This document shows positions 35,235 to 52,048 of a DNA stretch of 64,000 nucleotides, one piece after another. The translations under genes were made by a program, and so were the position numbers. The notes below the pieces were generated by a model. The model was not told the DNA's origin, searched no databases, and was given only the letters and a program-made list of their open reading frames with translations. The stretch is from Corallococcus macrosporus. GTDB taxonomy: Bacteria; Myxococcota; Myxococcia; Myxococcales; Myxococcaceae. Positions within the stretch are counted from its first letter, which is position 1. Every line of letters begins with the position of its first letter. Location of the stretch: assembly GCF_017302985.1 (NCBI RefSeq), contig NZ_JAFIMU010000017.1, positions 434,001 to 498,000 of the forward strand, read 5' to 3'.

Positions 35235-35298
35235 GGGGGCCGTGGCGCACGCGAACCGGGTCGGCAATCTCTTTCATCCACACGATTCATGGACCGAG

Positions 35299-35317
35299 GT
35301 CCCTCCCCGCGAGGGAC
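35299..35317 (+). promoter_or_regulatory. Stem-loop upstream of the transglutaminase-fold gene
   Basis: GTCCCTC-cccgc-GAGGGAC is a perfect 7-bp stem located 19 bases before ATG 35337 and 64 bases after the giant gene's stop. It could trim transcription between the two genes or hold the leader of the second. Confidence 0.35.
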
Positions 35318-35336
35318 GCGCAGCAGGGAGTCCGTC

Positions 35337-38300: not shown

Positions 38301-38513
38301 TTCTCCTGCGCGAGCTTCCCGAACACCGGAGCGAACTGCTTGGAGCTGGCGAATCGGCGCAACCTGGGACTCGCCTGCGCGGCGGCACGGCAGGCCATCA
38401 ACGACACCTGCTTCCGCGGGGGTGATGCGGCCCACATCGACGAGCTGAGCAAGGCCTTCGCGGCCGTCGCGACGTGCGAGTGCAAGCTCATCGCCAATGG
38501 GTGTCCCCCATGA
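35337..38513 (+). CDS. Transglutaminase-fold exported protein with C-terminal toxin-like domain
   Basis: A 1058-residue protein. ATG 35337 is chosen because GGGAG lies eight bases upstream; ATG 35289 lacks this. A signal peptide ends near MAAAA. Residues 30-230 are Ala/Glu-rich helices. Residues 280-435 are transglutaminase-like (LYNWVRNHIEWVPTYG, RGNAFDTASLLIALYRASG, MEHVWVEAQVDF, TWVPVDASF): His403 and Asp430 are in place, but the catalytic Cys position is Ala331. A long middle region follows, then two hydrophobic segments (903-955). The last 90 residues (CTSIQHRELKRAVGLACKS, ARQAINDTCFRGGDAAH, CECKLIANGC) hold about ten Cys and resemble Ntox16 of polymorphic toxins. The stop overlaps the next gene as ATGA. 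I read it as a contact- or surface-delivered toxin; the toxin call is moderate. Confidence 0.85.
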   Translation: MQQQLREASRQPGTPWMRALSMAVTVAMVFLSLRPMAAAAETEARQAQAHEAWRARVASASSADPAPSFLASLQSASTTGQRCSVASLQKPVLTAEEQHSQRLDAVAELAKRARPGALRTGRAHPVAALRAKLDEAASSGAALEASFASAEQTLKDAKLPSVLLERHRAAVKEARARQAQLLRLARQLDRADDAGLDAERARAVEAVVAFFDQHPQGEKHRPTPPGPLPFRSPEPTKRLPATSSQELPPALTRLAAKSSSLARTGVSAAPADTLTATEDVQLTPAIVALAAQLHHHPVELYNWVRNHIEWVPTYGSIQGSDLTLLNRRGNAFDTASLLIALYRASGIPARYVYGSIDVPTAQMLNWVGNVTRVEAAQQLLSQGGIPATALVQDGAIRAVRMEHVWVEAQVDFEPSRGAVHHTPDTWVPVDASFKQYSFPARVDVRAALPQDVQAETQKIVANVVKDPATGSVTGLDQVAYDAWLTTMREDANDRFGSQPSLEDFTGRRVILPETAQVLAGTLPYAVVARSQSFARLPDALRHQVQLTLYASAFDRMTGDASLTWTVDLPSLAGRRLGVTYVPASAADAAALAAYRAAPGDSLPLYQLNVRPVIQIDGVDQAQGPGGRMGEDQTWEARFLSPGDPGSEPVSFDVTAGEEMVFGIDGQGVTQEMIHARFQKQPSDTAAENLHTVALYYWAQYDALNEAVAAARDARVVRLPSIGLFSVPLSIQYYFGIPRLGSYSSRQMDVARSLIAVVDRAGGPTAEVHRLTGTFASLLEGRTFDALFQREPGSGVSAVQLLRDANTQNIPIYRITAANYAQIAPRLDIDADVAQEIANAVQAGQHVVVSERAPAHGNWSGLGYIIEDPDNGTAAYLIKGGLNGGADNPCNRERAKEPQRVPVLEIVLVAILIIALILLLLMLPEILIAIGGALEPAFASLMVFLGLGAAPAMAATPPPGAGMSPPGDCTSIQHRELKRAVGLACKSVPFSCASFPNTGANCLELANRRNLGLACAAARQAINDTCFRGGDAAHIDELSKAFAAVATCECKLIANGCPP

Positions 38514-39127
38514 GCAGTCCGTCGGACTCCGCCCGGGACCTGGCGGCCCTGGCCCGGGTGCGTCAGGCCTTCGCCGCCACTCCGCCGCCCCCGGCTTCCG
38601 TGGGGCGGCCCGGGCTCTGGTTCGATGAGCACGGCGCGCCCCACACCTACGACGACCCGGAGTCGGAAGAGGCGGCGGGCCACTTCGCGGGCCGGCCGTG
38701 GACGGACTTCGCCAACGCGGCGCTCCTCCAGTGGGAGTCGACGCAGTCGGGGCTTCTGCACCTGTCGTCCCAGGGCCGCGCCTACTACCTGCCCGCGTAC
38801 CTCATCGCGCTGCTCACCGAGGTGCTCGACGTGGACACGTTCTCCGCGCTGGAGACGGTGGTGGACGTGCTGATGCCCCCGGATCCGCGGGCCCCGCGCA
38901 GTGTGCCGGGCGGGCAGGGCGAAGCGCAGTGGAAGGCCCTGGTCCAGGCGCGCATCACCGCGTTCCAGGACTTCGTCGCCGCGCTGGACGGCCCCCAGCG
39001 CGCGGCGGTCGCGGCCTTCCTGGACGCCATGGTCCCCCGGTTCGGGAACACCCCGCCGCCCAATCCGGCACGCGTGGCGCTGGATGAGTTCTGGGCCACC
39101 TGGCTCCCGGCACTGTCTGGCGTTTGA
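38510..39127 (+). CDS. Candidate immunity protein (DUF6714-like)
   Basis: A 205-residue soluble protein starting at 38510, four bases before the upstream stop (ATGA overlap), so it is translated with the toxin-like gene. There is no signal or membrane segment, as needed to neutralise a toxin in the cytoplasm. It reads ALARVRQAFAATPPPPASVG, GRPWTDFANAALLQWES, then LHLSSQGRAYYLPAYLIALL, a pattern reminiscent of DUF6714 proteins, which are often found behind toxin domains. The Tyr-rich YYLPAYL segment is its best marker. The position and lack of other partners support immunity; no experiment or structure is implied. Confidence 0.82.
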   Translation: MSSPSDSARDLAALARVRQAFAATPPPPASVGRPGLWFDEHGAPHTYDDPESEEAAGHFAGRPWTDFANAALLQWESTQSGLLHLSSQGRAYYLPAYLIALLTEVLDVDTFSALETVVDVLMPPDPRAPRSVPGGQGEAQWKALVQARITAFQDFVAALDGPQRAAVAAFLDAMVPRFGNTPPPNPARVALDEFWATWLPALSGV

Positions 39128-39442: not shown

Positions 39443-40774
39443 ATGACCACCGGAACCCATTCGTCTCCTTCTGAGCCGGGCATGCGGCGCGCGGTATCGC
39501 GCTGGGAAATCGTCGGGTTCTCCATCAACGACGTCATCGGCAGCGGCGTCTACCTGCTGCCCGCGGCGGCCGCCGCGAACCTGGGCTCGGCCAGCACGGG
39601 CGCGGTCGTGCTCGCGGGGCTGGCGGTGCTGCTGCTCGTGCTCTGCTTCGCGGAGGCGGCCAGCTACTTCGACAAGCCCGGCAGCGCCTATCTCTACACG
39701 CGTGAAGCCTTTGGCGAACGGGTGGGGTTCCAGGTCGGCTGGATGACGTGGCTGGCGCGCGTCTCGTCCGTGGCCTCGCTGTCCGTGGGCTTCTCCCGCG
39801 CGCTGGGCTTCCTGTGGCCCGCGGCGAACTCGGGTCTGGGCCAGGGCCTGGCCATCGCCGTGCCCCTGCTCGCGCTCACCGCCATCAACGTCGTGGGCGT
39901 GAAGGGCGGCGCTCGCACCGCGGTGTTCCTCGCCGTCACCAAGACGGTGCCCCTGCTGGTGTTCATCGCCGTGGGCCTCTTCTCCGTGTCCGTGCCGCTG
40001 GCGACGTCGGTGGCTCCCAGGGAGGGCGGCAACCTGGGGGCCGCGGTGCTGCTGCTGCTGTTCGCCTACGCCGGCTTCGAGAACACGGCGGCTCCGGCGG
40101 GTGAGTTCAAGAACCCCCGCCGCGACGTGCCCTTCGCGCTCGTCGTGCAGATTGGCGTGGTCACGCTCATCTACACGGCGGTGCAGTGGGTGGCGCTGGG
40201 CACGCTGCCCGGGGTCGCGGACGCGCAGACGCCGCTCGCGAACGCCGCCGCGCGGTTCCTTGGCGGCTGGGGTGGGCTCCTCATGACGGTGGGCGGGGTG
40301 CTGTCCATCCTGGGGACCAACAGCAACACCGTGCTCGCCGGGCCGCGCTACCTGTACGCGCTGGCACAGGATGGCTTTGGTCCCGCCGCGCTCGCCACGC
40401 TGCATCCGCGCTTCCGCACGCCGACGGCCGCCATCCTCACGCAGACGGCCATCGCGCTGCCCCTCGCGTTCTCCGGCTCGTTCGAGGTGCTCGCCACGCT
40501 CTCCGTGGTGGCCCGGCTGGCCACGTACTTCGGCACGGCCATGGCGGTGCCCGTGCTGCGCCGCAAGCTCCAGGCGCCCGCGAACGCGTTCCGCATCCCG
40601 GGCGGTCCGGTGATTCCCTTCGCCGCCGCCGCTCTGTGCGTCGTCTTCGCGCTGAGCGCGGAGCGGGAGAACCTCATCGCCGGGGCCGTCGCGCTCGCGG
40701 TGGGCTTCGTGCTCTACAGGTTCCAGCGCAAGCCGGACGGCAAGGCCGCGCTGACCTCCCGGGAGACGTCATGA
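39443..40774 (+). CDS. APC-family amino acid permease
   Basis: A 443-residue membrane protein with about twelve hydrophobic helices. ATG 39443 is taken as start; ATG 39482 is also possible, and neither has a strong ribosome site. The APC pattern is plain in helix 1 (SRWEIVGFSINDVIGSGVYLL, with the unwound G-S-G), then FAEAASYFDKPGSAYLYTREAFG, the helix-6 region YAGFENTAAPAGEFKNPRRDVP and GTNSNTVLAGPRYLYALAQDG. It imports or exchanges amino acids; the substrate is unknown. Its stop overlaps the next small gene as ATGA. Confidence 0.92.
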   Translation: MTTGTHSSPSEPGMRRAVSRWEIVGFSINDVIGSGVYLLPAAAAANLGSASTGAVVLAGLAVLLLVLCFAEAASYFDKPGSAYLYTREAFGERVGFQVGWMTWLARVSSVASLSVGFSRALGFLWPAANSGLGQGLAIAVPLLALTAINVVGVKGGARTAVFLAVTKTVPLLVFIAVGLFSVSVPLATSVAPREGGNLGAAVLLLLFAYAGFENTAAPAGEFKNPRRDVPFALVVQIGVVTLIYTAVQWVALGTLPGVADAQTPLANAAARFLGGWGGLLMTVGGVLSILGTNSNTVLAGPRYLYALAQDGFGPAALATLHPRFRTPTAAILTQTAIALPLAFSGSFEVLATLSVVARLATYFGTAMAVPVLRRKLQAPANAFRIPGGPVIPFAAAALCVVFALSAERENLIAGAVALAVGFVLYRFQRKPDGKAALTSRETS

Positions 40775-41016
40775 GTCGGAAGAGGATGCTCGCCATCGTC
40801 GGTGCGGTCCTCCTTGCCGGCGTGGCCGTGGCCGTGGTCGTGCTTCGCGGTCAGGCCCGCGCACCCGGGGACGACGACAACTTCGCCGCCGACCTGGACG
40901 CGCGCCCGAAGTGCTGGGTGAAGATGAAGCCGTCCGCGACAGGGAAGTGCTCGGGGCGGGTTTACAAGGGGCAGTGCTACATGGCCAACTGGTCTGAGTG
41001 CGCGAAGTACTACTGA
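40771..41016 (+). CDS. Small membrane-anchored or exported Cys-containing protein
   Basis: An 81-residue protein that starts within the stop of the permease gene (ATGA at 40771). Residues 6-27 are a hydrophobic helix (MLAIVGAVLLAGVAVAVVVL) acting as signal or anchor. The outer part is short, basic and has four Cys (PKCWVKMKPS, GKCSGRV, GQCYMAN, SECAKYY), enough for two disulfides. No family is recognised. Coupling with the permease suggests an accessory role or simple co-transcription. Confidence 0.75.
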   Translation: MSRKRMLAIVGAVLLAGVAVAVVVLRGQARAPGDDDNFAADLDARPKCWVKMKPSATGKCSGRVYKGQCYMANWSECAKYY

Positions 41017-41155
41017 AGGGCGCGCGACTGCGTTCGGCTGCAACGCGCGCCGCGTGTGCTGCGCACGCGACCCGCGCACGGCGCGCGGCACCGGTCTGAT
41101 GAAACACACCGGGCCGCCATGAGCAGCGGTCTGGCGCCCGCCTTGCTTCGCCAGC

Positions 41156-41201
41156 GTCACATCCCAGGTCGCGGTGCACGCGACCCCAGCGGGGATGTGA
41201 C
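41156..41201. other. Two-tier stem-loop in non-coding DNA
   Basis: An outer stem GTCACATCCC (41156-41165) pairs with GGGATGTGAC (41192-41201), and an inner stem GGTCGCG (41167-41173) pairs with CGCGACC (41179-41185) over a five-base loop. Both stems are perfect. It could be a structured RNA or a protein-binding site. Confidence 0.45.
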
Positions 41202-41443
41202 ATGGAGAATGCCTGTCTGCTGCTCGCGGTGGTGCCCATCCGCTCCCTCGCGGACGAAGAGCCGCGCGACGTGGAGACGACCTGCAACCACGGGAAGCAC
41301 GCTGACCTGCGGTCGGTGCCGCTGCCCGACCCCGCGACGTCGACCCGGTGCCGAGCCTGGGCTGGAGGCCGCGCCGGATGAGGCCCGGGCTGCCGTCTGG
41401 AATGACTTCGCGTCTCAAGACACCTCGGTTGCTGTGCCGACAG

Positions 41444-41461
41444 GCAGGCGACGACGCCTGC
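41444..41461 (+). terminator. Short hairpin followed by TTT
   Basis: GCAGGCG-acga-CGCCTGC is a perfect 7-bp stem followed by tttgac. It may end transcription from the permease unit, 428 bases after the stop of the small protein, before the RiPP cluster promoter. Confidence 0.35.
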
Positions 41462-41549
41462 TTTGACATCACGCACCGTGCAGTCATTCCGGGCCCTTCA
41501 GGCTTGAAGACGTGTGAGAAAAGAATGCGACCCTGCCTCGTTTCGGCAC

Positions 41550-41600
41550 ATTGTCTGACCACAAACTGGATTCGCTATTGTCTGAGTAAGTCCGTATAGT
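41550..41600 (+). promoter_or_regulatory. Promoter region of RiPP cluster with repeated ATTGTCTG
   Basis: The octamer ATTGTCTG occurs at 41550-41557 and 41577-41584, 27 bases apart on the same face. TATAGT at 41595-41600 is a good -10 element only nine bases before the ATG at 41610, so the transcript could begin almost at the start codon (leaderless). No ribosome site is present, in agreement. Confidence 0.45.
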
Positions 41601-41609
41601 TCCGTATTA

Positions 41610-42569
41610 ATGGTGTTCCGACGACTCGCCAGTGCACTGGGTCTCCTGCTCCTTGTCGTCGTGGCCACGATGGTTGGCTTGCGGGCCCGCACGCCCGAGG
41701 GCTCGATGGACCCACGGCCTTCCCAGCCGGAGCCCCAACTCCTGACGCCCGATCCCCTGGCCGCGACGAGCAGCTGGCTGGGCGTCGTCATCGCCGAGGA
41801 ATCCGTCGACCTGGCCGCATCCCGGGAAGGGCGCGTGGCGAACATTCGCGTCCAGGTGGGGGATGCGGTGAAACAAGGTGAAGTGGTCGCGACGCTGGAC
41901 GTCACGGCGGCCCAGCAGGAGCTGGCCGTCGCCGAGGCCGAGTTGCTGTCGAGCCGTGCCGAGCTGCGCACCTCGCAGCTCGCCCTGGACGAGGCGCGGG
42001 AGCGGCTGGTGCGGCGTGACTCCCAGGAGCAGCTGCGGACCGGGGCCGTTTCCCACGAAGAGGTGTCCACGGCCCGCTATCAGGAACAGACGGCTTCCGC
42101 GAAGCTGGAGGTCGCGCAGGCGCAGATCCTCGAGCGCGAAGCGAAGGTGGCCCAGCTTCGCCGCAACGTGACGGAGACCTCCATCCGCGCGCCCTTTCAA
42201 GGCGTGGTCGCGAGCCGGTTCGTGGCGACAGGGGCCCAGATCCAGGCGGGCCAGCCCATCCTCCACCTGTTGCGCAGTGGGGCCGTGCAGGTGCGCTTCG
42301 CCCTTCCTCCCGCGGATGCACGGCACGTCGCGGTGGGGCAACGGTTGTTGCTGGAGGCGACCGATCAACAACCGATGGTCAGGGGGCGCGTCATTCGCGT
42401 CGCGCCCGAAGTCGATGTCGCCGCGATGAAGGTCTTCGCGGTCGCGGAGCTGGAGGCCGGGCCTGACGCCGCGCCGCCAGCGGGCACGGTGGTGCATGTG
42501 CGGGTGGAGCCCGGGTCCTCACCCATCGGGCTGCCAACCGTAGCGGGGACTGCCTCGAACCATCCTTGA
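41610..42569 (+). CDS. HlyD-like periplasmic adaptor protein (first)
   Basis: A 319-residue protein anchored by an N-terminal hydrophobic segment (ALGLLLLVVVATMVGL). It has the adaptor plan: a lipoyl half (EGRVANIRVQVGDAVKQGEVVATLD), a coiled-coil hairpin (residues about 95-190, Ala/Glu/Arg-rich), the second lipoyl half (SIRAPFQGVVASRFVATGAQIQAGQPILHL) and a beta-barrel domain (VRFALPPADARHVAVGQRLLLEAT). This is like RND/HlyD membrane fusion proteins that join an inner-membrane exporter to the outer membrane. It is the first gene of the peptide cluster, followed by a second adaptor and the C39 exporter, so it probably serves release of the modified peptide. It starts without a ribosome site, behind a close -10 element. 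Confidence 0.9.
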   Translation: MVFRRLASALGLLLLVVVATMVGLRARTPEGSMDPRPSQPEPQLLTPDPLAATSSWLGVVIAEESVDLAASREGRVANIRVQVGDAVKQGEVVATLDVTAAQQELAVAEAELLSSRAELRTSQLALDEARERLVRRDSQEQLRTGAVSHEEVSTARYQEQTASAKLEVAQAQILEREAKVAQLRRNVTETSIRAPFQGVVASRFVATGAQIQAGQPILHLLRSGAVQVRFALPPADARHVAVGQRLLLEATDQQPMVRGRVIRVAPEVDVAAMKVFAVAELEAGPDAAPPAGTVVHVRVEPGSSPIGLPTVAGTASNHP

Positions 42570-42630
42570 GACACAGCATGCCCGCCGTTGTGGCACGGCC
42601 CTTCGTGCCGGCGGGATCAGGAGCCACACC

Positions 42631-43575
42631 GTGGGAGGCAATCCATCCATTTTCCGCAAGGAGGCGCTGGAGCACTACCAGCAGCATGGGCGGCAGGACG
42701 GGGATGTGCTGCGCATCGCTCCGGAATGGACCCGGGCGGCCTACGTGCTGCTGGTCGGCTTGCTGGTGGTGGCCGCGGTGCTCTGCGCGGTAGGCACCGT
42801 GTCCGAGTACGCCTCCGGGACCGCGCTCGTGCGGGTGGAGCGCCGCACGGACGTGGCTGCCCCCCTGGGGGGCGTCGTGGTGTCCGTCGCGGTCCAACCC
42901 GGCCAGCGCGTGTCCCAGGGCCAGCTGCTGGTGACGCTCATGTCCGACGACGAGCGCAACTCGCTGGCACGCATCCAGTACGAGTCAGACCTGCACCTGG
43001 TGCGATACATGCGCGACCTGTCGGATGTGTCGGCCCGTCAGTCATTGACCGCCCTGCGAGCGGAGCTGGAGCTGGCCCGCTCCAAGCTGGACGCGCGGTC
43101 GCTGCGAGCCCCGGTGACGGGCGTCGTGGGGGACCTGCGCATCCAGCCGGGGCAATACCTGACGCCGGGCGCGCAGGTGGCCTCGCTGGTGGAGGACGAC
43201 GCTCCCGTGTACCTGCTGGCCTTGCTGCCCGGCTACTACCGCCCCTTCCTGCGTCCCGGCATGCCGCTGCGGGTCGAGCTGGACGGCTTCCGCTACGACT
43301 ACCGGGAAGTGCCCATCGAGTCGGTGGGTGATCAGATCATCGGCCCGGGGGAGCTGCAGCGCTACCTGGGGCCCGACCTGGCGGACGCGGTCAAACCCGA
43401 GGGGCCGCTCGTGCTGGTGCGGGCCCGGCTGCCTTCGCGCACCTTCTCCCGGGAGGGGAGGGTGTTCGGGTACTTCGACGGCATGCCCGCCCACGCGGAG
43501 GTGGCGGTCCGCTCCGAGCCCATCTTCCTGACCCTCATCCCTGGACTCAAGGTGCTCTTCCCCCATGACGGTTGA
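42631..43575 (+). CDS. HlyD-like periplasmic adaptor protein (second)
   Basis: A 314-residue protein from GTG 42631 with AGGAG eight bases upstream. It begins with a cytoplasmic stub containing FRKEALEHYQQH, typical for adaptors of peptide exporters (NHLM/bacteriocin type), then one membrane helix (AAYVLLVGLLVVAAVLCAVG). Next come the lipoyl halves (DVAAPLGGVVVSVAVQPGQRV and SLRAPVTGVVGDLRIQPGQY) with only a short coiled coil between them, and a C-terminal beta domain (FLRPGMPLRVELDGFRYDY). It overlaps the C39 exporter gene by 11 bases, so it is the likely dedicated partner of that transporter. Confidence 0.92.
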   Translation: MGGNPSIFRKEALEHYQQHGRQDGDVLRIAPEWTRAAYVLLVGLLVVAAVLCAVGTVSEYASGTALVRVERRTDVAAPLGGVVVSVAVQPGQRVSQGQLLVTLMSDDERNSLARIQYESDLHLVRYMRDLSDVSARQSLTALRAELELARSKLDARSLRAPVTGVVGDLRIQPGQYLTPGAQVASLVEDDAPVYLLALLPGYYRPFLRPGMPLRVELDGFRYDYREVPIESVGDQIIGPGELQRYLGPDLADAVKPEGPLVLVRARLPSRTFSREGRVFGYFDGMPAHAEVAVRSEPIFLTLIPGLKVLFPHDG

Positions 43576-45805
43576 ACAGGACGCGCCGGGTCCGCGCAAG
43601 CCGAGGTTGTCGGAGCGCTTCCCTGCGATGAAGCGGTTGCAGCGGCGCTCGCGCCGGCTCATCGAGGTGCGCCAGCTGTCGGCGACCGACTGCGGCGCGG
43701 CGTGCCTCACCATCGTGCTGCACTACCACGGCCGGGAGATGACCCTGGACGCGGTCCGCGAGCTGACCGGCGCGGGCCGCGATGGCGTGGGGGCCCGCAC
43801 GCTGCTGGACACGGCGCGAAGGCTCGGATTGAGGGGGCGCGCCATCTCCATCGACCTGGATCGCCTGCCCCACCTCCCCGTGGGCGCCATCCTCCACTGG
43901 GACTTCAACCACTACGTCGTCTTCGAGAAGATCGACGGCGACCTCGTGTCCATCGTGGATCCCGCCCAGGGACGCCGCACGGTGGCGATGGAGAACTTCC
44001 GGCAGCGCTTCACGGGCGTGGTCCTGGTCTTCGAGCCCGCGGCGGACTTCCAGCCCATGGCCCCCGAGCGGCGCAACAGCCTGCGCTACCTGTTGCCCCT
44101 GCTGGGACAGGCGGACTCGCTGGGGCGCATCGTCCTGCTGTCCGCCGCGCTGCAGCTCTTCGCGCTCGGGGTTCCCGCGCTCACCGGAATCATCGTGGAC
44201 CGGGTCGTCCCCCGCGGCGACTACCACCTGCTGCTGGTGCTGGGCGTGTCGCTGGCCAGCCTGGTGTTCTTCCACTTCATGGCCTCGCTCATCCGGGGCC
44301 ACCTGCTGCTGGAGATGCGGACCCGCCTGGACCTGACCATGGGGCTCGGGTTCCTGGATCACCTGGTGGACCTGGCCTACTCCTTCTTCCAGGTCCGCTC
44401 CGCGGGCGACCTGATGATGCGCATGAACTCCCAGGCGCACATCCGGGAAATCCTCTCGTCCACGACCATCTCCACCCTGCTCGACGGGACGATGGTGCTG
44501 CTCTACTTCGCCATGCTGTTCATCGCGAGCCCCTGGATGGGACTCGCCGTGTTCATCCTGGGATTGAGCCAGGTGCTGCTCTTCGTGCTGACGCGCAACA
44601 AGCGCCGCAGCCTCCTGTCGGAAGGGCTGGAGCTGGATGCGAAGAGCCAGAGCTATCAAATCTCCATGTTGACGGGCATCCAGACCCTCAAGGCCTTTGG
44701 CGCGGAGCGGCGGTCGGTGGAGAGCTACTCGCACCTGCTGGTGGACGTGCTGAACGCCTCCCTGGTGCGTGGACGGCTGACCCTGTGGGTGGACTCCGTG
44801 ATGGCAGCCCTGCGGCTGGCGTCGCCGCTGGCGCTGCTCAGCCTGGGCGCCTTCCTGGTGCTGGAGAAACACCTGACGCTGGGAGAGATGCTGAGCCTCA
44901 ACGCGCTGACCGCCGCGCTGCTCGTCCCCCTGTCCCAGTTGATTGGTTCCGCGGGCCAGTTCCAGCTGCTGGGCACCTACCTGGACCGCATCAACGACGT
45001 GCTGGACACGCCGCCGGAGCAGCCCGCGCTGGGCGTGGGCCGTGCGCCGCAGCTGCTGGGCGGCATCGAGCTGGACAGGGTTTCCTTCCGGCACAGCGCG
45101 GCGGCACCCCTGGTCGTGGAGGATGTCTCCCTGCGCATCGAACCCGGGCAGATGGTCGCCATCGTCGGGCGCTCGGGCGCGGGCAAGAGCACCATGGCCA
45201 ACCTGTTGCTCGGGCTGTACCTGCCGACCTCCGGACGGGTCATCTACGACGGCGTGGACCTGACCCGCATGGACCTGCGCCTGCTGCGCAGCCAGATGGG
45301 CGTCGTCCTCCAGGACCCGGCCTTCTTCCCCGCCTCCCTTCGGGAGAACATCTCGCTGGGGTCGCGCGAGCTGCCCATGAAGGCCGTGATTGAAGCGACG
45401 AAACTCGCGCACATCCACGACGACATCATGGCGATGCCCATGCAGTACGACACGCTGATGGTGGACCGGGGCTCTTCGCTGTCAGGCGGCCAGCGGCAGC
45501 GGCTGGCACTGGCCCGGGCGCTGATGCACAAGCCCGCGGTGCTCCTGCTGGACGAAGCAACCAGCGCGCTGGATGCCACCACGGAAAGCCAGGTGCAGGG
45601 AGCGCTGACGTCGCTGAAGTGCACGCGCATCGTCATCGCTCACCGGCTCAGCACCATCCGCAGCGCGGATGTCATCGTCGTCATGGACAAGGGCCGCGTC
45701 GTCGAAACGGGCTCGCATGAGACGCTGCTTGCGCTGGGAGGTGTCTATTCCCGGCTGGTCCATTCCCAGATGGAAGAAACACCCGCCATGGCTCGTGGCG
45801 CCTGA
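43565..45805 (+). CDS. Peptidase-C39 ABC exporter (PCAT) for double-glycine peptides
   Basis: A 746-residue transporter. Residues 30-165 are a C39 peptidase with Cys43 (QLSATDCGAACL), His116 (HWDFNHYVVFEKI) and Asp132 (IVDPAQG); it cuts leaders after Gly-Gly. Residues 175-470 are six membrane helices of ABC type. The nucleotide-binding domain has Walker A GRSGAGKS (535-542), Q-loop VVLQDPAFF, signature LSGGQRQR (639), Walker B AVLLLDEATSALD and switch His in IVIAHRLST. All parts needed for processing and export are intact. The substrate is likely the peptide encoded at 46950, which has the matching Gly-Gly. It overlaps the adaptor gene upstream. Confidence 0.95.
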   Translation: MTVEQDAPGPRKPRLSERFPAMKRLQRRSRRLIEVRQLSATDCGAACLTIVLHYHGREMTLDAVRELTGAGRDGVGARTLLDTARRLGLRGRAISIDLDRLPHLPVGAILHWDFNHYVVFEKIDGDLVSIVDPAQGRRTVAMENFRQRFTGVVLVFEPAADFQPMAPERRNSLRYLLPLLGQADSLGRIVLLSAALQLFALGVPALTGIIVDRVVPRGDYHLLLVLGVSLASLVFFHFMASLIRGHLLLEMRTRLDLTMGLGFLDHLVDLAYSFFQVRSAGDLMMRMNSQAHIREILSSTTISTLLDGTMVLLYFAMLFIASPWMGLAVFILGLSQVLLFVLTRNKRRSLLSEGLELDAKSQSYQISMLTGIQTLKAFGAERRSVESYSHLLVDVLNASLVRGRLTLWVDSVMAALRLASPLALLSLGAFLVLEKHLTLGEMLSLNALTAALLVPLSQLIGSAGQFQLLGTYLDRINDVLDTPPEQPALGVGRAPQLLGGIELDRVSFRHSAAAPLVVEDVSLRIEPGQMVAIVGRSGAGKSTMANLLLGLYLPTSGRVIYDGVDLTRMDLRLLRSQMGVVLQDPAFFPASLRENISLGSRELPMKAVIEATKLAHIHDDIMAMPMQYDTLMVDRGSSLSGGQRQRLALARALMHKPAVLLLDEATSALDATTESQVQGALTSLKCTRIVIAHRLSTIRSADVIVVMDKGRVVETGSHETLLALGGVYSRLVHSQMEETPAMARGA

Positions 45806-45852
45806 ATTGTTGCCAGGTGTGTGTTGACTGGGGTCGAGGTGAGCTGAACTCA

Positions 45853-45892
45853 AACGATCGTTCGTCATTTCTGGTTCTGCGGGTTGTTGACA
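45853..45892 (+). promoter_or_regulatory. Palindrome and -35-like element before the PhyH gene
   Basis: A perfect ten-base palindrome AACGATCGTT lies at 45853-45862, and a consensus -35 hexamer TTGACA at 45887-45892. No good -10 box at the right spacing is visible. The gap of 149 bases after the exporter stop suggests a second transcription unit begins here. Confidence 0.35.
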
Positions 45893-45954
45893 TTTCTCAT
45901 GCTCTGATAGACCATTGCTTTCCCTTCAGCGCTCGGCACGTGAGGCTTTCGAAC

Positions 45955-46851
45955 ATGAGTCTGTCCGACCATTGGCCTACCGGTGACGAGCGAGCCTTTT
46001 TCGAGCGTGAAGGCTATCTCGTCGTTCCGGATGCCCTCTCACCCGCGCAGGTCAGCAGCCTGACGGAAGCCATTGAGAGGTGCCGCCAGCGGGAGGAGAG
46101 CCCTCCGGAGGCGTTCTACAACCGGCTCGACATCCTGGGACAGGACGACGCGTTCCTGGAGTTGGTCGACAATCCGGCGGTGCTGGGGAAGATCAGTGGC
46201 CTGCTGGGCTGGAATATCTGGGTCAATCACACCCATTACAATGTGCGGCCGCCGGACACCTCCGCCGAGAAGTATCGCTATGACTGGCATGTGGACGGCG
46301 GGATGTTCAGCCAGGACCTTCAATTCCAGGCGCCGATGACCGCCATCAAGGTGGGGTTCTACCTCACCGACCTGGTGGAGCCCGGCCGGGGGCAGACGTT
46401 CATCTTCCCGCTGTCGCTCATGGAGGAGCGCAACTGGCGGGAGGAGTTCAGGCCCTTCACCCCTCCGCCGTCAGAGGCCCGGCCCCTGACCGTGAAGGCA
46501 GGCTCCGCGGTCCTGTTCCAGCAGCGCACCCTGCACAGCCAGGGGAGCCCGAACCTGTCCGCGTTCACCCGGAAGGCCATCTTCGTCCAGTGGGCGTTCC
46601 GCTGGCTGTTCCCCGTGGATGAGATGTCCGTCGATACATTGGATGCGCGCGTCCAGGACCCGGTGCGCAGGCAGTTGTTGGGACTGGATCGCAAGCGTCC
46701 CTTTGGAAGGCTGTCCCCGAAGTACTACCCCCGCCCCGAGGATCTGCCCTTGAAGAACCGGCTGATCGAACAGGTGGGCATTTCGCGGATGTGTGAGTTG
46801 GGGCCCGCCGCCACGCGCCATCTCACGCAATTGCTCAAATTCGAGCTGTAG
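45955..46851 (+). CDS. PhyH-family Fe(II)/2-oxoglutarate oxygenase
   Basis: A 298-residue enzyme from ATG 45955, with GAGG ten bases upstream. It has the phytanoyl-CoA dioxygenase plan: start ERAFFEREGYLVVPDALSPAQV, metal ligands His112 and Asp114 (YDWHVDGGMF), distal His194 (RTLHSQGSPNLS) and a following Arg for 2-oxoglutarate (AFTRKAIFVQWAFR). All residues needed for activity are present. Members hydroxylate small molecules or peptides. Lying directly before the precursor peptide gene, it probably hydroxylates the core peptide. A weak stem-loop follows the stop. Confidence 0.92.
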   Translation: MSLSDHWPTGDERAFFEREGYLVVPDALSPAQVSSLTEAIERCRQREESPPEAFYNRLDILGQDDAFLELVDNPAVLGKISGLLGWNIWVNHTHYNVRPPDTSAEKYRYDWHVDGGMFSQDLQFQAPMTAIKVGFYLTDLVEPGRGQTFIFPLSLMEERNWREEFRPFTPPPSEARPLTVKAGSAVLFQQRTLHSQGSPNLSAFTRKAIFVQWAFRWLFPVDEMSVDTLDARVQDPVRRQLLGLDRKRPFGRLSPKYYPRPEDLPLKNRLIEQVGISRMCELGPAATRHLTQLLKFEL

Positions 46852-46853
46852 CC

Positions 46854-46875
46854 CAGGTGTAGCACGCAGCACCTG
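46854..46875 (+). terminator. Weak stem-loop after the PhyH gene
   Basis: CAGGTG (46854-46859) pairs with CACCTG (46870-46875) over a ten-base loop directly after the stop at 46851. The stem is short and has no T run. Confidence 0.3.
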
Positions 46876-46949
46876 TCGTCCTTACGCCCGAGGTGTATCT
46901 CAAGGCAATGGGCCGGCAATTCAACCCCACAACGAGAGGGAGTACCCCC

Positions 46950-47165
46950 ATGAGCAACGTCAAGAGCATCATCCAGAACATGTCTGGTGAGACCCGCGCC
47001 CGCGCTGAGGCGTTCGCGAGCGCCAAGGGCCTGTCCCTCGAGGCGGCCGTCGCCTCGCAGCTCGAGGTGGAGCTCACCGAGAGCGACCTGTCCGGCGTCG
47101 TCGGCGGCCTGCAGGCCATCGAGAACGTCGAGCTGCCGGACGGCACCGAAGTCATCGAGGGCTGA
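46950..47165 (+). CDS. Double-glycine RiPP precursor peptide
   Basis: A 71-residue peptide with GAGGGAG about eight bases before ATG 46950. The leader (residues 1-53) is helical and charged (KSIIQNMSGETRARAEAFAS, ASQLEVELTESDLSGVVGG) and ends in Gly52-Gly53, with Leu at -7 and hydrophobic spacing usual for C39 sites. The core is the last 18 residues, LQAIENVELPDGTEVIEG: five acidic residues plus Asn, Gln, Pro and one Thr, no Cys, Ser, Lys, Trp or Tyr. It therefore cannot form lanthionines, thiazoles or sactionine links. Neighbours are a PhyH oxygenase, a JmjC-cupin oxygenase, a degenerate cupin, an FkbM methyltransferase and a C39 exporter, so hydroxylation and methylation are the likely changes. 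I do not recognise the leader as a named family. Confidence 0.85.
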   Translation: MSNVKSIIQNMSGETRARAEAFASAKGLSLEAAVASQLEVELTESDLSGVVGGLQAIENVELPDGTEVIEG

Positions 47166-47180
47166 GACGGCTGACCGCGG

Positions 47181-47204
47181 CGGGCCCTCTTTCGGGGGGG
47201 CCCG
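47181..47204 (+). terminator. Stem-loop between precursor and cupin genes
   Basis: CGGGCCC (47181-47187) pairs with GGGCCCG (47198-47204), 16 bases after the precursor stop. There is no T run. A partial terminator here would give more precursor than enzyme mRNA, as in many peptide clusters. Confidence 0.5.
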
Positions 47205-47267
47205 TCGTGGGTCGGGTCGCTCAACCTGAGCTGAGACACCTGTCTGATCCCGGGATCCGATGTGAGA

Positions 47268-48461
47268 ATGCCAGACCTGTCCGCGCTCGAGTTCATCCTC
47301 CATCCGATGTCGGTCGAGGTGTTCCTGTCCGAGTACTGGGAGAAGAAGGTCCTCCACATCCCCAGGAACCGGCCGGACTACTACTCGCACCTGTTCAGCC
47401 TCGGGGAGCTGGATTCGTTCCTGGGTCATTCGATGACGAATGACGAGGTCCGGATGGCCAGGTCGGGGAGCGTCACCCATCCCAACGTGGAGGGTGACAA
47501 CAAGACGACCCTCTATCAGTTCTACGAGCGCTACCGCGACGGCCACACCATCGTCATCCGGAACATCCATCAGTGCTGGCCGCCCGTGGGGGAGATCGCG
47601 AACGCGCTGGCGCGCGCCTTCGGCTGCTACATCAGCACGTTCTCCTACGCGACCCCGGAGAACGCGCAGGGGTTCAAGACCCACTGGGATGATCACGACA
47701 TCTTCGCCCTCCAACTGGAAGGGGAGAAGGAATGGCGCCTGTATGACTCGGGCCCCGAACTCCCCCGCTACAGCAAGGAGCGCGGCGAATACGAGCGTCA
47801 GAGCAAGCCCGCGGACGGGCCCTCCCACGTCATCAACCTCAAGGCCGGGGACCTGCTCTATTTCCCAAAGGGGGTCATCCACGAGCCCCGGACCCGGACC
47901 TGCTCCTCGCTGCATGTGACGTTCGGCCTGTTCCCGGACACCTGGGAGAAGATCCTCACGGAGTCCGTGATGGACCTCGCGGATCGGGATCCTCGCTTCC
48001 AGGAGAGCCTCCCCTTTGGCTATTCCGTGGAGAAGGCTCACGCCTCGCGGCTGTTCGAGCGGGCCCAGGAACTGGCGGAGGAGGTGTCGGGCGCGGCCCA
48101 CTTCGAGGCGTCACGCAACCGGCTCGCGGCGAAGTTCCTGGACCGGATCGCCCCGCTGGCGGACGGGCACTTCTCCCGCCTGGGGAGCGGCACGCAGGTG
48201 CATGCGGGGACCCCGCTGGAAAGGCGCAGGAGCATGGAAGGCGTCGTGCTCGCCCAGGGCGGCAAGGTGAAGCTCCACTTCCCGGGCGGCCACTACCTGG
48301 CGGCTCGCGAAAGCGAGGCGGCGCTGCGCTTCGTGGCCATGGAGGAGCGGTTCCTCGCGGGAGACATTCCCGGCCGCGGCGAGCCCGAGCGGTTGGCCCT
48401 GGTTCGCGACCTCATCCAGGTGGGTTTCTTGAAGGTCGCGGAGCCGAAGGGCGAACGCTGA
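47268..48461 (+). CDS. JmjC/cupin-type Fe(II) oxygenase, intact metal site
   Basis: A 397-residue enzyme; ATG 47268 is taken (GTG 47262 is in frame two codons earlier). The N terminus has the cupin_4/ribosomal-oxygenase pattern (EYWEKKVLHIPRNRPDYYSHL). The jelly roll carries His139 and Asp141 (KTHWDDHDIFALQLEGEKEW) and distal His205 (LLYFPKGVIHEPRT), the Fe(II) triad of JmjC oxygenases such as YcfD/RoxA, followed by SSLHVTFGLF. The C-terminal half is a winged-helix-like region. YcfD-type enzymes hydroxylate Arg or His of ribosomal proteins; here the target is probably the precursor peptide encoded just before it. The next gene is a paralogue that lost these ligands. Confidence 0.92.
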   Translation: MPDLSALEFILHPMSVEVFLSEYWEKKVLHIPRNRPDYYSHLFSLGELDSFLGHSMTNDEVRMARSGSVTHPNVEGDNKTTLYQFYERYRDGHTIVIRNIHQCWPPVGEIANALARAFGCYISTFSYATPENAQGFKTHWDDHDIFALQLEGEKEWRLYDSGPELPRYSKERGEYERQSKPADGPSHVINLKAGDLLYFPKGVIHEPRTRTCSSLHVTFGLFPDTWEKILTESVMDLADRDPRFQESLPFGYSVEKAHASRLFERAQELAEEVSGAAHFEASRNRLAAKFLDRIAPLADGHFSRLGSGTQVHAGTPLERRRSMEGVVLAQGGKVKLHFPGGHYLAARESEAALRFVAMEERFLAGDIPGRGEPERLALVRDLIQVGFLKVAEPKGER

Positions 48462-48489
48462 CGGCAGCGCCCTCTTCCGGAAGACAGCC

Positions 48490-49701
48490 ATGAGCCATTG
48501 CGAAAACCTCCAAGCCGTCCTCTCGCCTACGCCCCTGGAGCAGTTCGCCAGTGACATCTGGGAGCGCAACGCCCTCGTCGTCAGGCGCGACGCGCCCGAC
48601 TACTTCCGCTCCCTGTTCTGCTCCGCGGAGCTTGACGGGCTCATCAACGCGTCCTTCACCAACAACAGCATCCACCTCATCCAGGGGACCCAGTTCGCCG
48701 CGGCCTGGCCCCGCCGGCCGCGCAAGACGACGCTCTCCGAGTTCTACAAGGAGTTCTCGGACGGAAAGAGCCTGGCCCTCCGGGAGATGCACGTCCGCTG
48801 GAAGCCCATCACCCGGCTGGTCAGCGCCATCGCGCGGCAGTCTGGCTTTGTCATCACCGCGGATTTGATCGCGGCGCCGCCCCGCTCGTGCAACGCCGGC
48901 GCCTGGAACGACAGCCGCAGCTTCTTCGTGCTCCAGTTGGAGGGGACGTCCACCTGGCGCCTTCCGCCCGGCCGGTTCAAGCCCCTGCCTCCGGAAGAGG
49001 GGGGCGGCGAGTCGCTGTCCCTGAAGGCGGGTGACACCCTGTACCTGCCTTTCGCCAACCTGCCGGGGGGCGCTTCGTCGAGCGACGCACTCCCCATGGT
49101 GGAGACCCAGGACTCGCACTCCCTGCACCTCGTGTTCACCGTGCAGCGGGTGACGTACGCGGACCTGCTGGGCCGCGCCGTCGCGGCGGCCAGCGTCAAG
49201 GACATCGAGCTGCGACGGGCGATGGGCTTTGGTGGCCCGCTGCGCCCGTCCGGCAAGGCGAAATCGGAGCCCTGGTTCCGCGAGCTGGCCGCGAAGACCT
49301 TCGAGGTCCCGGACTGGGAGGGCGCGCTCCAGGCGCTCAAGCGCGAGCACCGGAAACGGTTGCCCTTCCTTCCGGATGGGCACTTCGAGTTGCTGCGCCA
49401 TGTGGAGAGCGTTGACGCGACGACGGTCGTCAAGCGGAGGCCGGGAATCGAGGTGCAGGCGCACCTCTTCGAGGGCCAGACCGAGCTCATCTTCCCGGGC
49501 TATTACTACCACGGGCCGGAGAAGCTCCTCCTCGCCCTGGACTTCATCAGCGCGACCCCGCAGTTCGCGGTCAAGGACATCCCGGGCTGGTACACGGATC
49601 CGGAGCGCGTCCGCCTTGTGAAGCACTTGATTTCAATGGGCATCCTGACGTTCGCGACCTCACCGGCCGCGAAGTCCGAAGTCCGGCCTGAGAGCGCATG
49701 A
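48490..49701 (+). CDS. Degenerate JmjC/cupin paralogue
   Basis: A 403-residue protein clearly homologous to its neighbour through FASDIWERNALVVRRDAPDY, FFVLQLEGTSTWRLP, LKAGDTLYLPFANLPGG and HSLHLVFTVQRVTYADLLG. The metal ligands are gone: the HWD triad is Ala138-Trp-Asn140 (GAWNDSRS) and the distal His aligns with Pro192 (LPFANLPGG). It should therefore not bind Fe(II) in the usual way. The fold core and C-terminal domain remain, and the frame is full length, so it is kept by selection; a leader-binding or scaffolding partner of the active oxygenase is plausible. Its stop overlaps the FkbM start as ATGA. Confidence 0.88.
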   Translation: MSHCENLQAVLSPTPLEQFASDIWERNALVVRRDAPDYFRSLFCSAELDGLINASFTNNSIHLIQGTQFAAAWPRRPRKTTLSEFYKEFSDGKSLALREMHVRWKPITRLVSAIARQSGFVITADLIAAPPRSCNAGAWNDSRSFFVLQLEGTSTWRLPPGRFKPLPPEEGGGESLSLKAGDTLYLPFANLPGGASSSDALPMVETQDSHSLHLVFTVQRVTYADLLGRAVAAASVKDIELRRAMGFGGPLRPSGKAKSEPWFRELAAKTFEVPDWEGALQALKREHRKRLPFLPDGHFELLRHVESVDATTVVKRRPGIEVQAHLFEGQTELIFPGYYYHGPEKLLLALDFISATPQFAVKDIPGWYTDPERVRLVKHLISMGILTFATSPAAKSEVRPESA

Positions 49702-50513
49702 ACAAGCCGAGCATCTACCACGAGCATTCTCCCCAGCTGGACACGCTCTGGAAGAAGTCTGTCGCGCGAATCTGGAGCCCTGACGGGGAGACCGGCTGGT
49801 ACGACCAGTCCCTGCGCGAGGTGATGGTCCTCGGCACGCTCTTGAGGAAGTTCCGCATCGAGCCCCAGGGCGTACTCTACCTGGGCGCGCATTCCGGATA
49901 CCTGCTGTGGGTGTGGCTGCTGTTGGGCTACCGGAACGTGCTGATGGTCGAGCCGCAGGAAGACGTCTTCAAGCGGCTGGCCACCGTGGCCAAGGCCACC
50001 AGCGCGATGGCGATGGTGCGTGACCAGATGCTGGACTGCGAGGAGCCAACGCAGATCCACGTGGCCCAGTGTGCCATCAGCGACCATGACGGAGAGGCGG
50101 ACTTCTTCGTCATGGCCCACAGCATGTTGAGCTCGCTGCAAGCACCCAACGTGACGGAGTTCGGGCAGCAGCGTCTGCGGGAGGCCATGTCCGTCAACGA
50201 GCGCGTGACGGTTCCCGTGCGGACGCTCGATAGCCTTCTGCGGGAGTTGGCGGAGGGCGGGAGCGACACCCGCTACAACACGCTCTACCTGAACATCCAG
50301 GGCGCGGAGCTGAAGGCGCTCCAGGGCGCACGGCAGACCCTCAAGCACATCGAGTTCATCCATCTGGAGGTCAACATCAAGGAGCGCTACGTCGGCGCTC
50401 CCACGGCGGAGGACATCGATACGTTCCTCGGTGAGCTGGGCTTCGAGCCGGGATGGGGCATGCGCTATCCCACCATTGGCAATGGCCACACGGCCTACGT
50501 GAGGAAGCGGTAA
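49698..50513 (+). CDS. FkbM-family methyltransferase
   Basis: A 271-residue protein coupled to the cupin paralogue through ATGA at 49698. The SAM-binding start is GVLYLGAHSGYLLWVWLLLG with VLMVEPQEDVFKRL as the second strand acid, followed by the family block TVPVRTLDSLL and LYLNIQGAELKALQGARQTL. In most FkbM proteins that block reads D-x-Q-G-A-E; here the Asp is Asn199. The C terminus has IHLEVNIKERYVGAPTAEDID. FkbM enzymes O-methylate sugars, hydroxy groups or carboxyls. Position at the end of the peptide cluster suggests O-methylation of a hydroxylated residue or of an acidic side chain of the core. Confidence 0.9.
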   Translation: MNKPSIYHEHSPQLDTLWKKSVARIWSPDGETGWYDQSLREVMVLGTLLRKFRIEPQGVLYLGAHSGYLLWVWLLLGYRNVLMVEPQEDVFKRLATVAKATSAMAMVRDQMLDCEEPTQIHVAQCAISDHDGEADFFVMAHSMLSSLQAPNVTEFGQQRLREAMSVNERVTVPVRTLDSLLRELAEGGSDTRYNTLYLNIQGAELKALQGARQTLKHIEFIHLEVNIKERYVGAPTAEDIDTFLGELGFEPGWGMRYPTIGNGHTAYVRKR

Positions 50514-50524
50514 CGCCGCGCGGC

Positions 50525-52048
50525 TCACCTCAGCGAGTAGGAGCGCACCTGTCCGTCGTCGTAGAGGGGCGGCGGCAGCCGGGCCCGCGTCGCTTCCGGG
50601 AGCCATCCTCCGAACGAGGACTCCACCAGGAGCGTGGCCCCTTCGCGGCGCAGCTCCTCCAGCCGCTCGGGGGTGAGGGACGCCGGGGGCAGTGACCAGC
50701 CCTGGCGTCGCAGCGTCACCAGCGAGACGACGGGCGTGCTCAGGTCCGTGGCCACCGTCAGTCCTGGCGGGCCCAGCTTCGGCACGGCCGCGTCGAGCCG
50801 GGCGACATCGAGCTCCGGGGGCTTCGTATAGGACAGCGTGCGCAACAGCGCGGTGACCGCGAACACCGCCAGGAACGCCAGCCGCCAGCGCTCCGGGGCG
50901 CGGCGCTCGCGCGTGGCCGCCACGACGAAGGCGCCAATGAGCAGGCTGGTCGCGAGCGTGAGCGGGATGGCGTAGTACTGGTGCTGGAAGTTGTGGCGGC
51001 CGAAGAGGACCACCACGCCGAGCGAGGCCGCGAACCACGCGGTCACCACCGGGTGTTCCTTCAGCACGCGCCCCGTCGTCCGCCAGGACACGAGCATCCA
51101 GAGGAAGGTGGGCAGCAGGAAGAAGAGGTGGATGCAGCGGCCGAACACCACGGAGATGAACGTCCAGGTGAAGAGCTCCCGCGTCCACTCCCACCAGTCG
51201 TGCTTCAGCTTGAAGAGCGGCAGACCGTAGGTCTCTTCCAGCACGTGGGCATGGCGGAACCAGACGAGCACCGCGACGACCGGAATCAGGCCGATGAGCG
51301 AGGACCGGGCGAGCACCCACTTCCTCTCCGGACCCGGCGCTCCCTTCCACGCCGCCAGCACCCACGCCGTGGCGGGGACCGCCGCCGCCACGCCGGTGGG
51401 CTTGAGCACGGCCGCGAGCGCCAGCAGCACGCCCGCCAGCAGCGCCCGTCCCCAGCTCGCACGGATGCCGTCGAAGGCCATGCACAGGCCCCAGCAGAGC
51501 AGGGTCAGCATGGGCACCTCGGGCATCAGCTTGCGTGAGAACACCAGCACCAGCGGCTGGAGCAGGAGACACACCGCGGCCACCCGCGCCGTGTCCTCGT
51601 CCCGCAGCATGCGCCGGCCCAGGGCGAGCCCGCCGAACGCCAGGGGAATGAGACACAGCCACACGGGCAGGCGCGCCCAGGTGTCGTGCTCGCCGAAGAG
51701 GGCCATGGCCGCCGCGCCCAGCCAGTTCACCAGCGGGAACTCCATGCCGACGATGCCGGTCAGCCCGCCGCGCTCCGCCACGCGCGGGTAGAGGATGTTC
51801 CAGCCCTCGTGGAGGAACGCGCGCGCCACGCCGAGCCCGTCCGCGTCACGCCAGGGATGCACGCCGTGGGGCGGCAGCGCCAGGGTCCACACCTTCCACG
51901 CGAGCGCGAGGAGCAGGGCCCCCGAGAAGACGGCCGGCCAGGTGCGCTGGCCGCGCCGGAGCGGAGGCGACGCGGCCTCCTGGGGGAGCCCTGAGGTGTC
52001 GAGCATGGGGGATGGCGAACGCATGCGGGGCGCGACCCTACCCTCCAT
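50525..52048 (-). CDS. ArnT/GT39-like membrane glycosyltransferase
   Basis: A 507-residue protein with about eleven hydrophobic helices and a soluble C-terminal region. After the first helix comes PPHGVHPWRDADGLGVARAFL, the periplasmic Asp-containing loop of GT-C glycosyltransferases, then GMEFPLVNWLGAAAMALFG. Further markers are LVFSRKLMPEVPMLTLLCWG and HNFQHQYYAIPLTLA. Such enzymes move a sugar from a polyprenyl carrier to lipid or protein outside the membrane. The start is uncertain; ATG 52048, 52024 and 52006 are all in frame. It is convergent with the peptide cluster (11 bases between stops) and on the same strand as the cyd genes, 57 bases downstream of cydC. Confidence 0.85.
   Translation of the reverse strand: MEGRVAPRMRSPSPMLDTSGLPQEAASPPLRRGQRTWPAVFSGALLLALAWKVWTLALPPHGVHPWRDADGLGVARAFLHEGWNILYPRVAERGGLTGIVGMEFPLVNWLGAAAMALFGEHDTWARLPVWLCLIPLAFGGLALGRRMLRDEDTARVAAVCLLLQPLVLVFSRKLMPEVPMLTLLCWGLCMAFDGIRASWGRALLAGVLLALAAVLKPTGVAAAVPATAWVLAAWKGAPGPERKWVLARSSLIGLIPVVAVLVWFRHAHVLEETYGLPLFKLKHDWWEWTRELFTWTFISVVFGRCIHLFFLLPTFLWMLVSWRTTGRVLKEHPVVTAWFAASLGVVVLFGRHNFQHQYYAIPLTLATSLLIGAFVVAATRERRAPERWRLAFLAVFAVTALLRTLSYTKPPELDVARLDAAVPKLGPPGLTVATDLSTPVVSLVTLRRQGWSLPPASLTPERLEELRREGATLLVESSFGGWLPEATRARLPPPLYDDGQVRSYSLR

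Follow-up and report, generated by a model that had tools for sequence, protein, structure and literature searches.

Eight genes packed at positions 41610–50513 on the plus strand of a 64,000 nt stretch of DNA from Corallococcus macrosporus, a predatory soil bacterium, probably encode a ribosomally synthesized and post-translationally modified peptide (RiPP) whose short acidic core would be hydroxylated and methylated during maturation, with a pseudo-oxygenase, JmjB, as a partner protein. The whole stretch (assembly GCF_017302985.1, contig NZ_JAFIMU010000017.1, positions 434,001–498,000, forward strand) is termed the window. RiPP classes are usually recognized through one ring-forming or backbone-changing enzyme. 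The eight genes encode two HlyD adaptors, a C39 peptidase–ABC exporter, a PhyH-type oxygenase, the precursor peptide, a JmjC oxygenase (JmjA), JmjB and an FkbM-family methyltransferase. All eight open reading frames (ORFs) were confirmed and have high third-position GC; Pfam and NCBIfam place on this strand the domains that an initial annotation of the window had named.

A role for JmjC proteins as RiPP tailoring enzymes is already known, since JmjC relatives occur in RiPP-like loci and hydroxylases of the biphenomycin type have been published. What is new here is a conserved cassette of oxygenases plus a methyltransferase in which one oxygenase appears to be dead. According to the initial annotation, no described class is known to have this exact set of genes, and searches of the open-licence literature found no description of one.

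Conservation and distribution of the cassette

Searches covered 145 genomes from the order and 195 from the phylum. Besides the window, the cassette recurs in two further myxobacterial genomes, one from another genus of the family (G072, locus L015) and one from the same genus (G066, locus L016). The order HlyD1–HlyD2–ABC–PhyH–precursor–JmjA–JmjB–FkbM is identical in the window and L015, and L016 differs in being without HlyD1. Protein identity to the window, for all genes except the precursor, ranges from 54% (JmjB, L016) to 76% (HlyD2 and ABC, L015). The called flanking ORFs (13 in the window, seven in L015 and six in L016) include none common to the window and either other locus, and the eight genes are therefore taken to be the common cassette. 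A contig scan gave one relative, Corallococcus sp. CA053C, which is probably locus L016.

A model of the precursor matches three of the 195 phylum genomes at E ≤ 0.001, namely the three cassette genomes, and a PhyH model at 1e-30 matches the same three. The FkbM model at 1e-20 matches eight of the 195; the three cassette genomes match at full length (4.5e-161 or better), with only partial matches in the remaining five (6.5e-30 to 5.2e-21). JmjA at 1e-15 matches 16 of the 145 order genomes and JmjA/B at 1e-30 matches 16 of the 195, of which 13 hold no cassette. Nine additional precursor matches from a first search (12 of 145 order genomes at E ≤ 0.1) were rejected as chance, with E values of 0.027–0.099 and positions inside long reading frames; a precursor search of plasmids gave no match. 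The initial annotation had looked to homologous loci without the precursor as evidence against it; each of the three orthologous loci holds one, between PhyH and JmjA.

The precursor peptide

The precursor (46950–47165, plus strand) has 71 residues, comprising a 53-residue double-glycine leader that ends in VVGG (46950–47108) and an 18-residue core, LQAIENVELPDGTEVIEG (47109–47162). It has no Pfam match, and its NCBIfam matches are at chance level (best E 0.02). The leader is conserved among the three loci, with 41, 40 and 42 of 53 residues identical in the three pairs. In two pairs the cores align no better than composition-matched shuffles, which reach the observed score in 884 of 1000 and 231 of 1000 cases; the third pair is weakly better, at 64 of 1000. 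Each core has 15–18 residues, four or five of them acidic, and a single Thr, with no Cys, Ser or aromatic residue, a composition that speaks against lanthionine rings and biaryl links. A precursor with a conserved leader and a variable core, lying beside modifying enzymes and C39–ABC/HlyD export genes, bears out the ribosomal peptide logic that had been read from the window at the outset.

A strong RNA hairpin (47163–47222, plus strand; z −5.1) begins at the precursor stop codon. Hairpins lie between the precursor and JmjA in all three loci, with z values of −5.1, −4.4 and −2.4 and with 0, 0 and 3 of 200 shuffles folding as well, values to be read in the light of the stretches having been picked after the fold of the gap was viewed. 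In L015 the hairpin starts about 70 or more bases past the stop codon. A terminator scan at the hairpin found no T run.

A probably active and a probably inactive JmjC protein

JmjA (47262–48461, plus strand) is a NO66/MINA-like JmjC oxygenase with a JmjC_2 domain (Pfam, 3.1e-26), and His, Asp and His occupy the HxD...H ligand columns in all three loci (H139, D141 and H205 in the window, numbered from 47268). In each locus the gene has a GTG start followed by K/R-V/M-PDLS. JmjB (48490–49701, plus strand) matches the same domain below threshold (1.9e-4; 21.4 bits against a cut-off of 22). Its ligand columns read W-D-P, F-D-P and F-G-P, so that both His residues are gone in all three loci and the Asp in one, the Asp column being alignment-dependent, as another alignment set this residue one column off. 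The degenerate cupin of the initial annotation is thus borne out in every locus. The ligand alignment comprises nine of 17 myxobacterial rows and ten plasmid rows, and all 16 rows other than JmjB keep HDH (JmjA of the three loci, three other myxobacterial proteins and ten plasmid proteins). The eight myxobacterial rows outside it, namely both genes of loci L047 and L048 and the single genes of L042–L045, show H, D and H in another alignment.

In a midpoint-rooted tree of 23 myxobacterial JmjC rows, which carries a long-branch warning and includes six single genes of the genus (L049–L054), JmjA groups with JmjB in one clade (97/98), where the JmjB branch is long (1.53). JmjC pairs associated with LanM form a separate clade (100/97) in which both copies are intact. 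The topology is compatible with a duplication after which JmjB lost its catalytic function.

The two proteins differ in where they are conserved. Mean identity between orthologue pairs is 0.78 in the catalytic part of JmjA and 0.52 in its C-terminal domain; in JmjB the values are 0.57 and 0.65, which makes the C-terminal domain its best conserved part. This domain is also the best-modelled part of both proteins (strands then helices, with an extra strand; block pLDDT, the predicted local distance difference test, 66–91). According to the accessible parts of PMC12710340, JmjC domains of fish and algae carry fused folds resembling the RiPP recognition element, and the closest bacterial JmjC homologues lie in RiPP-like contexts. 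On our reading, JmjB would be a putative partner of JmjA in recognition or scaffolding.

Alternatively, JmjB may be no partner at all, having a different activity or simply decaying, a reading that otherwise overlaps the favoured one whatever the peptide is. Its long branch and a catalytic part less conserved than that of JmjA would fit. Decay is countered by three observations: JmjB is open and full length in all three loci, 54–60% identical to the window copy; the FkbM start overlaps the JmjB stop (ATGA) in the window; and its C-terminal domain is more conserved than that of JmjA (62–70% against 49–57% identity). We therefore do not take JmjB to be decaying, and consider it doubtful that it has no partner role.

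The best solved-structure relatives of these proteins, by sequence (E about 1e-34) and also by fold, are human NO66 and MINA53. Fold comparison gives Z 17.6 for JmjA (root mean square deviation (rmsd) 9.7, 310 aligned) and Z 14.8 for JmjB (rmsd 12.8, 286 aligned). NO66 and MINA53 are ribosomal-protein hydroxylases according to their PDB titles, whereas the cassette holds a predicted active/inactive pair in a peptide cluster.

PhyH, FkbM and the type of methylation

The PhyH-type Fe(II)/2-oxoglutarate (2OG) oxygenase (45955–46851, plus strand; Pfam PhyH, 6.8e-15) was given the start of its homologues, 45955; the longest ORF would begin at 45817. Its HVD motif and downstream His are kept in all three loci, and a PDB search gave weak matches, to EasH and phytanoyl-CoA dioxygenase. 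JmjA and PhyH, the two Fe(II) oxygenases that the initial annotation had placed beside the precursor, are predicted to be active; the third protein of oxygenase fold, JmjB, is predicted to be inactive.

The FkbM-family S-adenosylmethionine (SAM) methyltransferase (49698–50513, plus strand; Pfam FkbM, 1.7e-13) exceeds both family cut-offs (Methyltransf_21, 51.5 bits against 22.7; TIGR01444, 49.7 against 37.7), and a PDB search found no relative. A precedent is EreM of the pythonamide cluster, which is a backbone N-methyltransferase and, according to its authors in the accessible parts of PMC9259500, was then the sole characterized FkbM enzyme in a RiPP cluster. Most of the methyl groups are installed by EreM only when the oxygenase EreI is co-expressed, as stated in the accessible text of PMC11285071. 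Because EreM acts on nitrogen, both O- and N-methylation are possible for the cassette enzyme. Of the proposal that the product is defined by hydroxylation and O-methylation, the enzymatic basis stands, in that JmjA and PhyH keep their Fe ligands and the FkbM family is confirmed; the choice of oxygen as acceptor is not established, given the backbone methylation by EreM.

A further explanation is that a double-glycine peptide is secreted without modification, the oxygenases and methyltransferase serving a different substrate, for instance a host protein or a small molecule. Apart from EreM, the FkbM enzymes surveyed in the accessible parts of PMC9259500 are documented or likely O-methyltransferases, mostly of polyketide synthase, non-ribosomal peptide synthetase or other pathways, a plasmid relative of FkbM lies among glycosyltransferases, and the substrates of NO66 and MINA proteins lend the idea some weight. 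It fits poorly with the placing of the precursor between PhyH and JmjA in all three loci, with the occurrence of precursor and PhyH nowhere else in the 195 genomes and with the several JmjC relatives that adjoin peptide-modifying genes, and we regard it as unlikely.

Export genes and a proposed maturation pathway

Export would be served by three genes on the plus strand. HlyD1 (41610–42569) is a periplasmic adaptor (Pfam HlyD_3, 9.4e-15; TIGR01730 RND_mfp, 110.6 bits against a cut-off of 94.9) with a 56% identical orthologue in L015 and no match in L016. HlyD2 (42631–43575) is a membrane-fusion adaptor (HlyD_3, 1.1e-15) with orthologues 76% (L015) and 57% (L016) identical. The exporter (43565–45805) combines Peptidase_C39 (4.2e-33), ABC_membrane and ABC_tran (4.5e-35) domains, has orthologues 76% (L015) and 71% (L016) identical, and finds its best NCBIfam match in NHLM_micro_ABC1, at 589.6 bits under a cut-off of 853.3.

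In the pathway that we favour, the precursor would be made in excess, perhaps aided by the hairpin after its gene. The conserved leader would dock on a JmjA–JmjB pair in which JmjA provides catalysis; the loss of ligands and the shifted conservation suggest that the dead JmjB binds the leader or a partner through its C-terminal winged-helix-like domain. JmjA and PhyH would then hydroxylate core side chains, with acidic or aliphatic residues the likeliest targets to judge from the enzyme families and core composition. FkbM may then methylate a new hydroxyl or a carboxyl group (O), or the backbone (N, as EreM does). Finally, the C39 domain would cut after Gly-Gly and the ABC–HlyD exporter would secrete a linear acidic peptide of about 15–18 residues. 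Export and processing are here predicted from the logic of the domain families and hydroxylation from active-site conservation; the role of JmjB is inferred. A secreted antagonist, a signal and a metal-binding peptide are candidates for the role of the product.

If this is true, a peptide made with oxygenases and a methyltransferase only would escape finders keyed to ring-forming or backbone-changing enzymes. The cassette would also be a source of genetically encoded hydroxylated, possibly N-methylated, linear peptides, and the active/inactive JmjC pair would show clearly how a 2OG oxygenase can become a recognition partner. More tentatively, and with less than even confidence, the cassette may represent a new RiPP class in which a JmjC/pseudo-JmjC heterodimer, PhyH and FkbM are the primary maturases and the dead oxygenase is the leader-recognition subunit, a locus of Streptomyces clavuligerus (L085, below) being its minimal distant form.

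Class-defining enzymes and related loci

None of the enzymes that mark RiPP classes (LanM, LanB, LanC, YcaO, radical SAM, ATP-grasp) was found among the eight genes with Pfam and NCBIfam, or in Pfam scans of seven neighbours in the window and nine flanking proteins of L015 and L016. The absence of a class-defining enzyme, as first annotated, thus holds for the conserved cassette and the flanking proteins scanned. A genome-wide search, covering the LanC family only, found LanC-like genes elsewhere in all three cassette genomes (three matches in G000, the window genome, two in G066 and five in G072), none of them on the cassette contigs.

JmjA relatives in other RiPP-like loci are about 25–33% identical to it. 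Among plasmids, JmjA matched 47 records, of which 25 were listed and eight neighbourhoods were read, one of the eight being unannotated. Among the matches listed, JmjC has LanM, an NHLP exporter and a Nif11 precursor as neighbours in a Pseudanabaena plasmid, and radical SAM genes in plasmids of Rhizobium etli and Mycetohabitans. In myxobacterial locus L046 a PhyH gene and then two adjacent JmjC genes stand beside LanM (Pfam), and L047 and L048 have the same layout by gene calls. JmjC also adjoins a C39–ABC gene in L041 (Pfam) and in L042–L045 (similarity).

These associations, together with the LanC-like genes, are what favours viewing the cassette as tailoring genes that serve a known RiPP class, with the enzyme that defines the class supplied in trans from elsewhere in the genome. 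Against this stand the three cores without Cys, Ser or aromatic residues, the location of every LanC-like match off the cassette contigs and the lack of a class enzyme in the flanking proteins scanned; we judge such an arrangement quite improbable.

Individual classes were rejected on similar grounds: lanthipeptides, as the eight genes hold no LanM, LanB or LanC and the three cores no Cys; graspetides, as no ATP-grasp ligase is among the eight genes, a genome-wide ATP-grasp search not having been made; biphenomycin-type RiPPs, as the eight genes include neither a multinuclear non-haem iron-dependent oxidative enzyme (MNIO) nor a B12 radical SAM enzyme and the core lacks aromatics; and NHLP-type systems, as the precursor falls outside the Nif11/NHLP leader families and the exporter falls short of the NHLM_micro_ABC1 cut-off.

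Several known or predicted systems share parts of the cassette. Biphenomycin-type RiPPs resemble it in using a JmjC/cupin oxygenase on a RiPP precursor (PbsQ, BpmG and BipG), these JmjC proteins hydroxylating ornithine; as described in the accessible parts of PMC12257519 and PMC12707348, their clusters differ in having an MNIO, a B12 radical SAM enzyme, an arginase (pbs) and an aromatic motif, none of which is found among the cassette genes or in the core. Pythonamide (ere) likewise combines an FkbM methyltransferase and a 2OG oxygenase, EreM and EreI, on one precursor, but in the accessible parts of PMC9259500 and PMC11285071 it is a proteusin with epimerization, C-methylation and a 46-residue core, none of which is indicated for the cassette. 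Corallotide, a Corallococcus graspetide, resembles the predicted product in being a RiPP of this genus with a 2OG oxygenase and a partner protein; it differs, as far as the accessible text of PMC13097080 describes it, in its graspetide synthetase, large repetitive precursor and Lys-Asp isopeptide rings, and the cassette has no such synthetase.

Loci L046–L048 share with the cassette the PhyH gene followed by two adjacent JmjC genes, but have LanM, Fe ligands in both JmjC proteins and an unrelated short peptide, with no similarity in the stretch at 1e-3 to the window PhyH, FkbM or exporter. The region at 4383–15719 of L046, with its equivalents in L047 and L048, holds LanM, PhyH, two intact JmjC genes and an S41 peptidase (Pfam on L046 only), L046 and L048 have a short ORF ending GSCTWGANCGK, and the three are probable hydroxylated lanthipeptide clusters.

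In L085, an S. clavuligerus plasmid locus (8793–10188), a 48-residue acidic Asp/Pro-rich peptide directly precedes JmjC, with an S9 peptidase and an ABC transporter nearby; none of the genes in the 19 kb read is annotated as a class-defining enzyme. It is a candidate oxygenase-only RiPP and the JmjA-relative locus most like the window cassette; it differs in having no double glycine, a single JmjC, the S9 peptidase and another type of ABC transporter, and no PhyH or FkbM is annotated in the stretch. Two Streptomyces plasmids (L099, 4760–13149; L100, 4672–12474) carry tandem intact JmjC genes near major facilitator superfamily transporters, M13/S9 peptidases and tetratricopeptide repeat proteins, and L099 also has a YcaO gene. 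In a Dolichospermum plasmid (L083, 7682–10167), a 71-residue peptide with an LNGG motif and a JmjC gene lie between transposases, together with a 251-residue protein that has no firm Pfam match.

Evidence weighing against the favoured reading

The proposed hydroxylated and methylated RiPP has to be set against several observations that weigh against it. It is a prediction from genes, and among the genomes searched only three loci carry the cassette. The three cores show no conserved modification site beyond their acidic residues and single Thr. Leader ratios of nonsynonymous to synonymous differences (pN/pS) are 0.81, 0.58 and 0.40, by themselves a weak coding signal, as the leader has few silent differences. 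Leader pS is 0.15 (window–L015), 0.31 (window–L016) and 0.27 (L015–L016), against 0.40–0.64 over the whole length of five other cassette-neighbour genes. Only the first value is lower than all 50-codon windows of those genes (minimum 0.24, same pair); the other two are within the range that such windows span. Codon bias and high third-position GC (0.94), or recombination of the leader, could be the cause.

The contrast in conservation between JmjA and JmjB beats 20,000 of 20,000 column permutations and only 274 of 294 circular shifts, on three loci only; given this weaker outcome, the shift of conservation in JmjB is suggestive. Structure models of the two proteins have low mean pLDDT (55.7 and 64.2), and their rmsd to NO66 is large.

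A scan for double-glycine leaders near JmjC found no precursor in L041–L045, and over L041–L048 gave one poor candidate (L047). Two plasmid relatives of FkbM were found; the one readable neighbourhood, that among glycosyltransferases, is not RiPP-like, and the second record is unannotated. The LanC-like genes in all three genomes make class enzymes acting in trans possible. Finally, a MacB/FtsX-type permease lies divergently upstream of the cassette in L015 (14858–17284, plus strand) and L016 (11120–13645, plus strand), the two being 66% identical, so that the cassette may be larger in these two of the three loci; none is among the called flanking genes of the window.

Genomic surroundings in the window

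The amino acid permease gene upstream of the cassette is present in 13 of 16 genomes of the genus, including the window's own, and is 92–96% identical across the genus. Its match stops at window position 40752 in four fetched regions (L079–L082), beyond which the DNA in the stretch read is unlike the window. The data amount to a synteny break and do not establish insertion of the cassette into a clean site. Among the same 16 genomes, the downstream glycosyltransferase-like gene has a DNA match in the window's own genome alone. A search of 40000–51000 with Rfam gave no match, and promoter and terminator scans gave zero and two sites, with no excess over shuffles.

Further upstream, at 35289–39127, lies a gene whose 1074-residue product combines a transglutaminase core with an Ntox16 domain at the C terminus; a gene for a DUF6714 protein comes next. 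The former looks like a polymorphic toxin gene, and the latter is perhaps its immunity gene.

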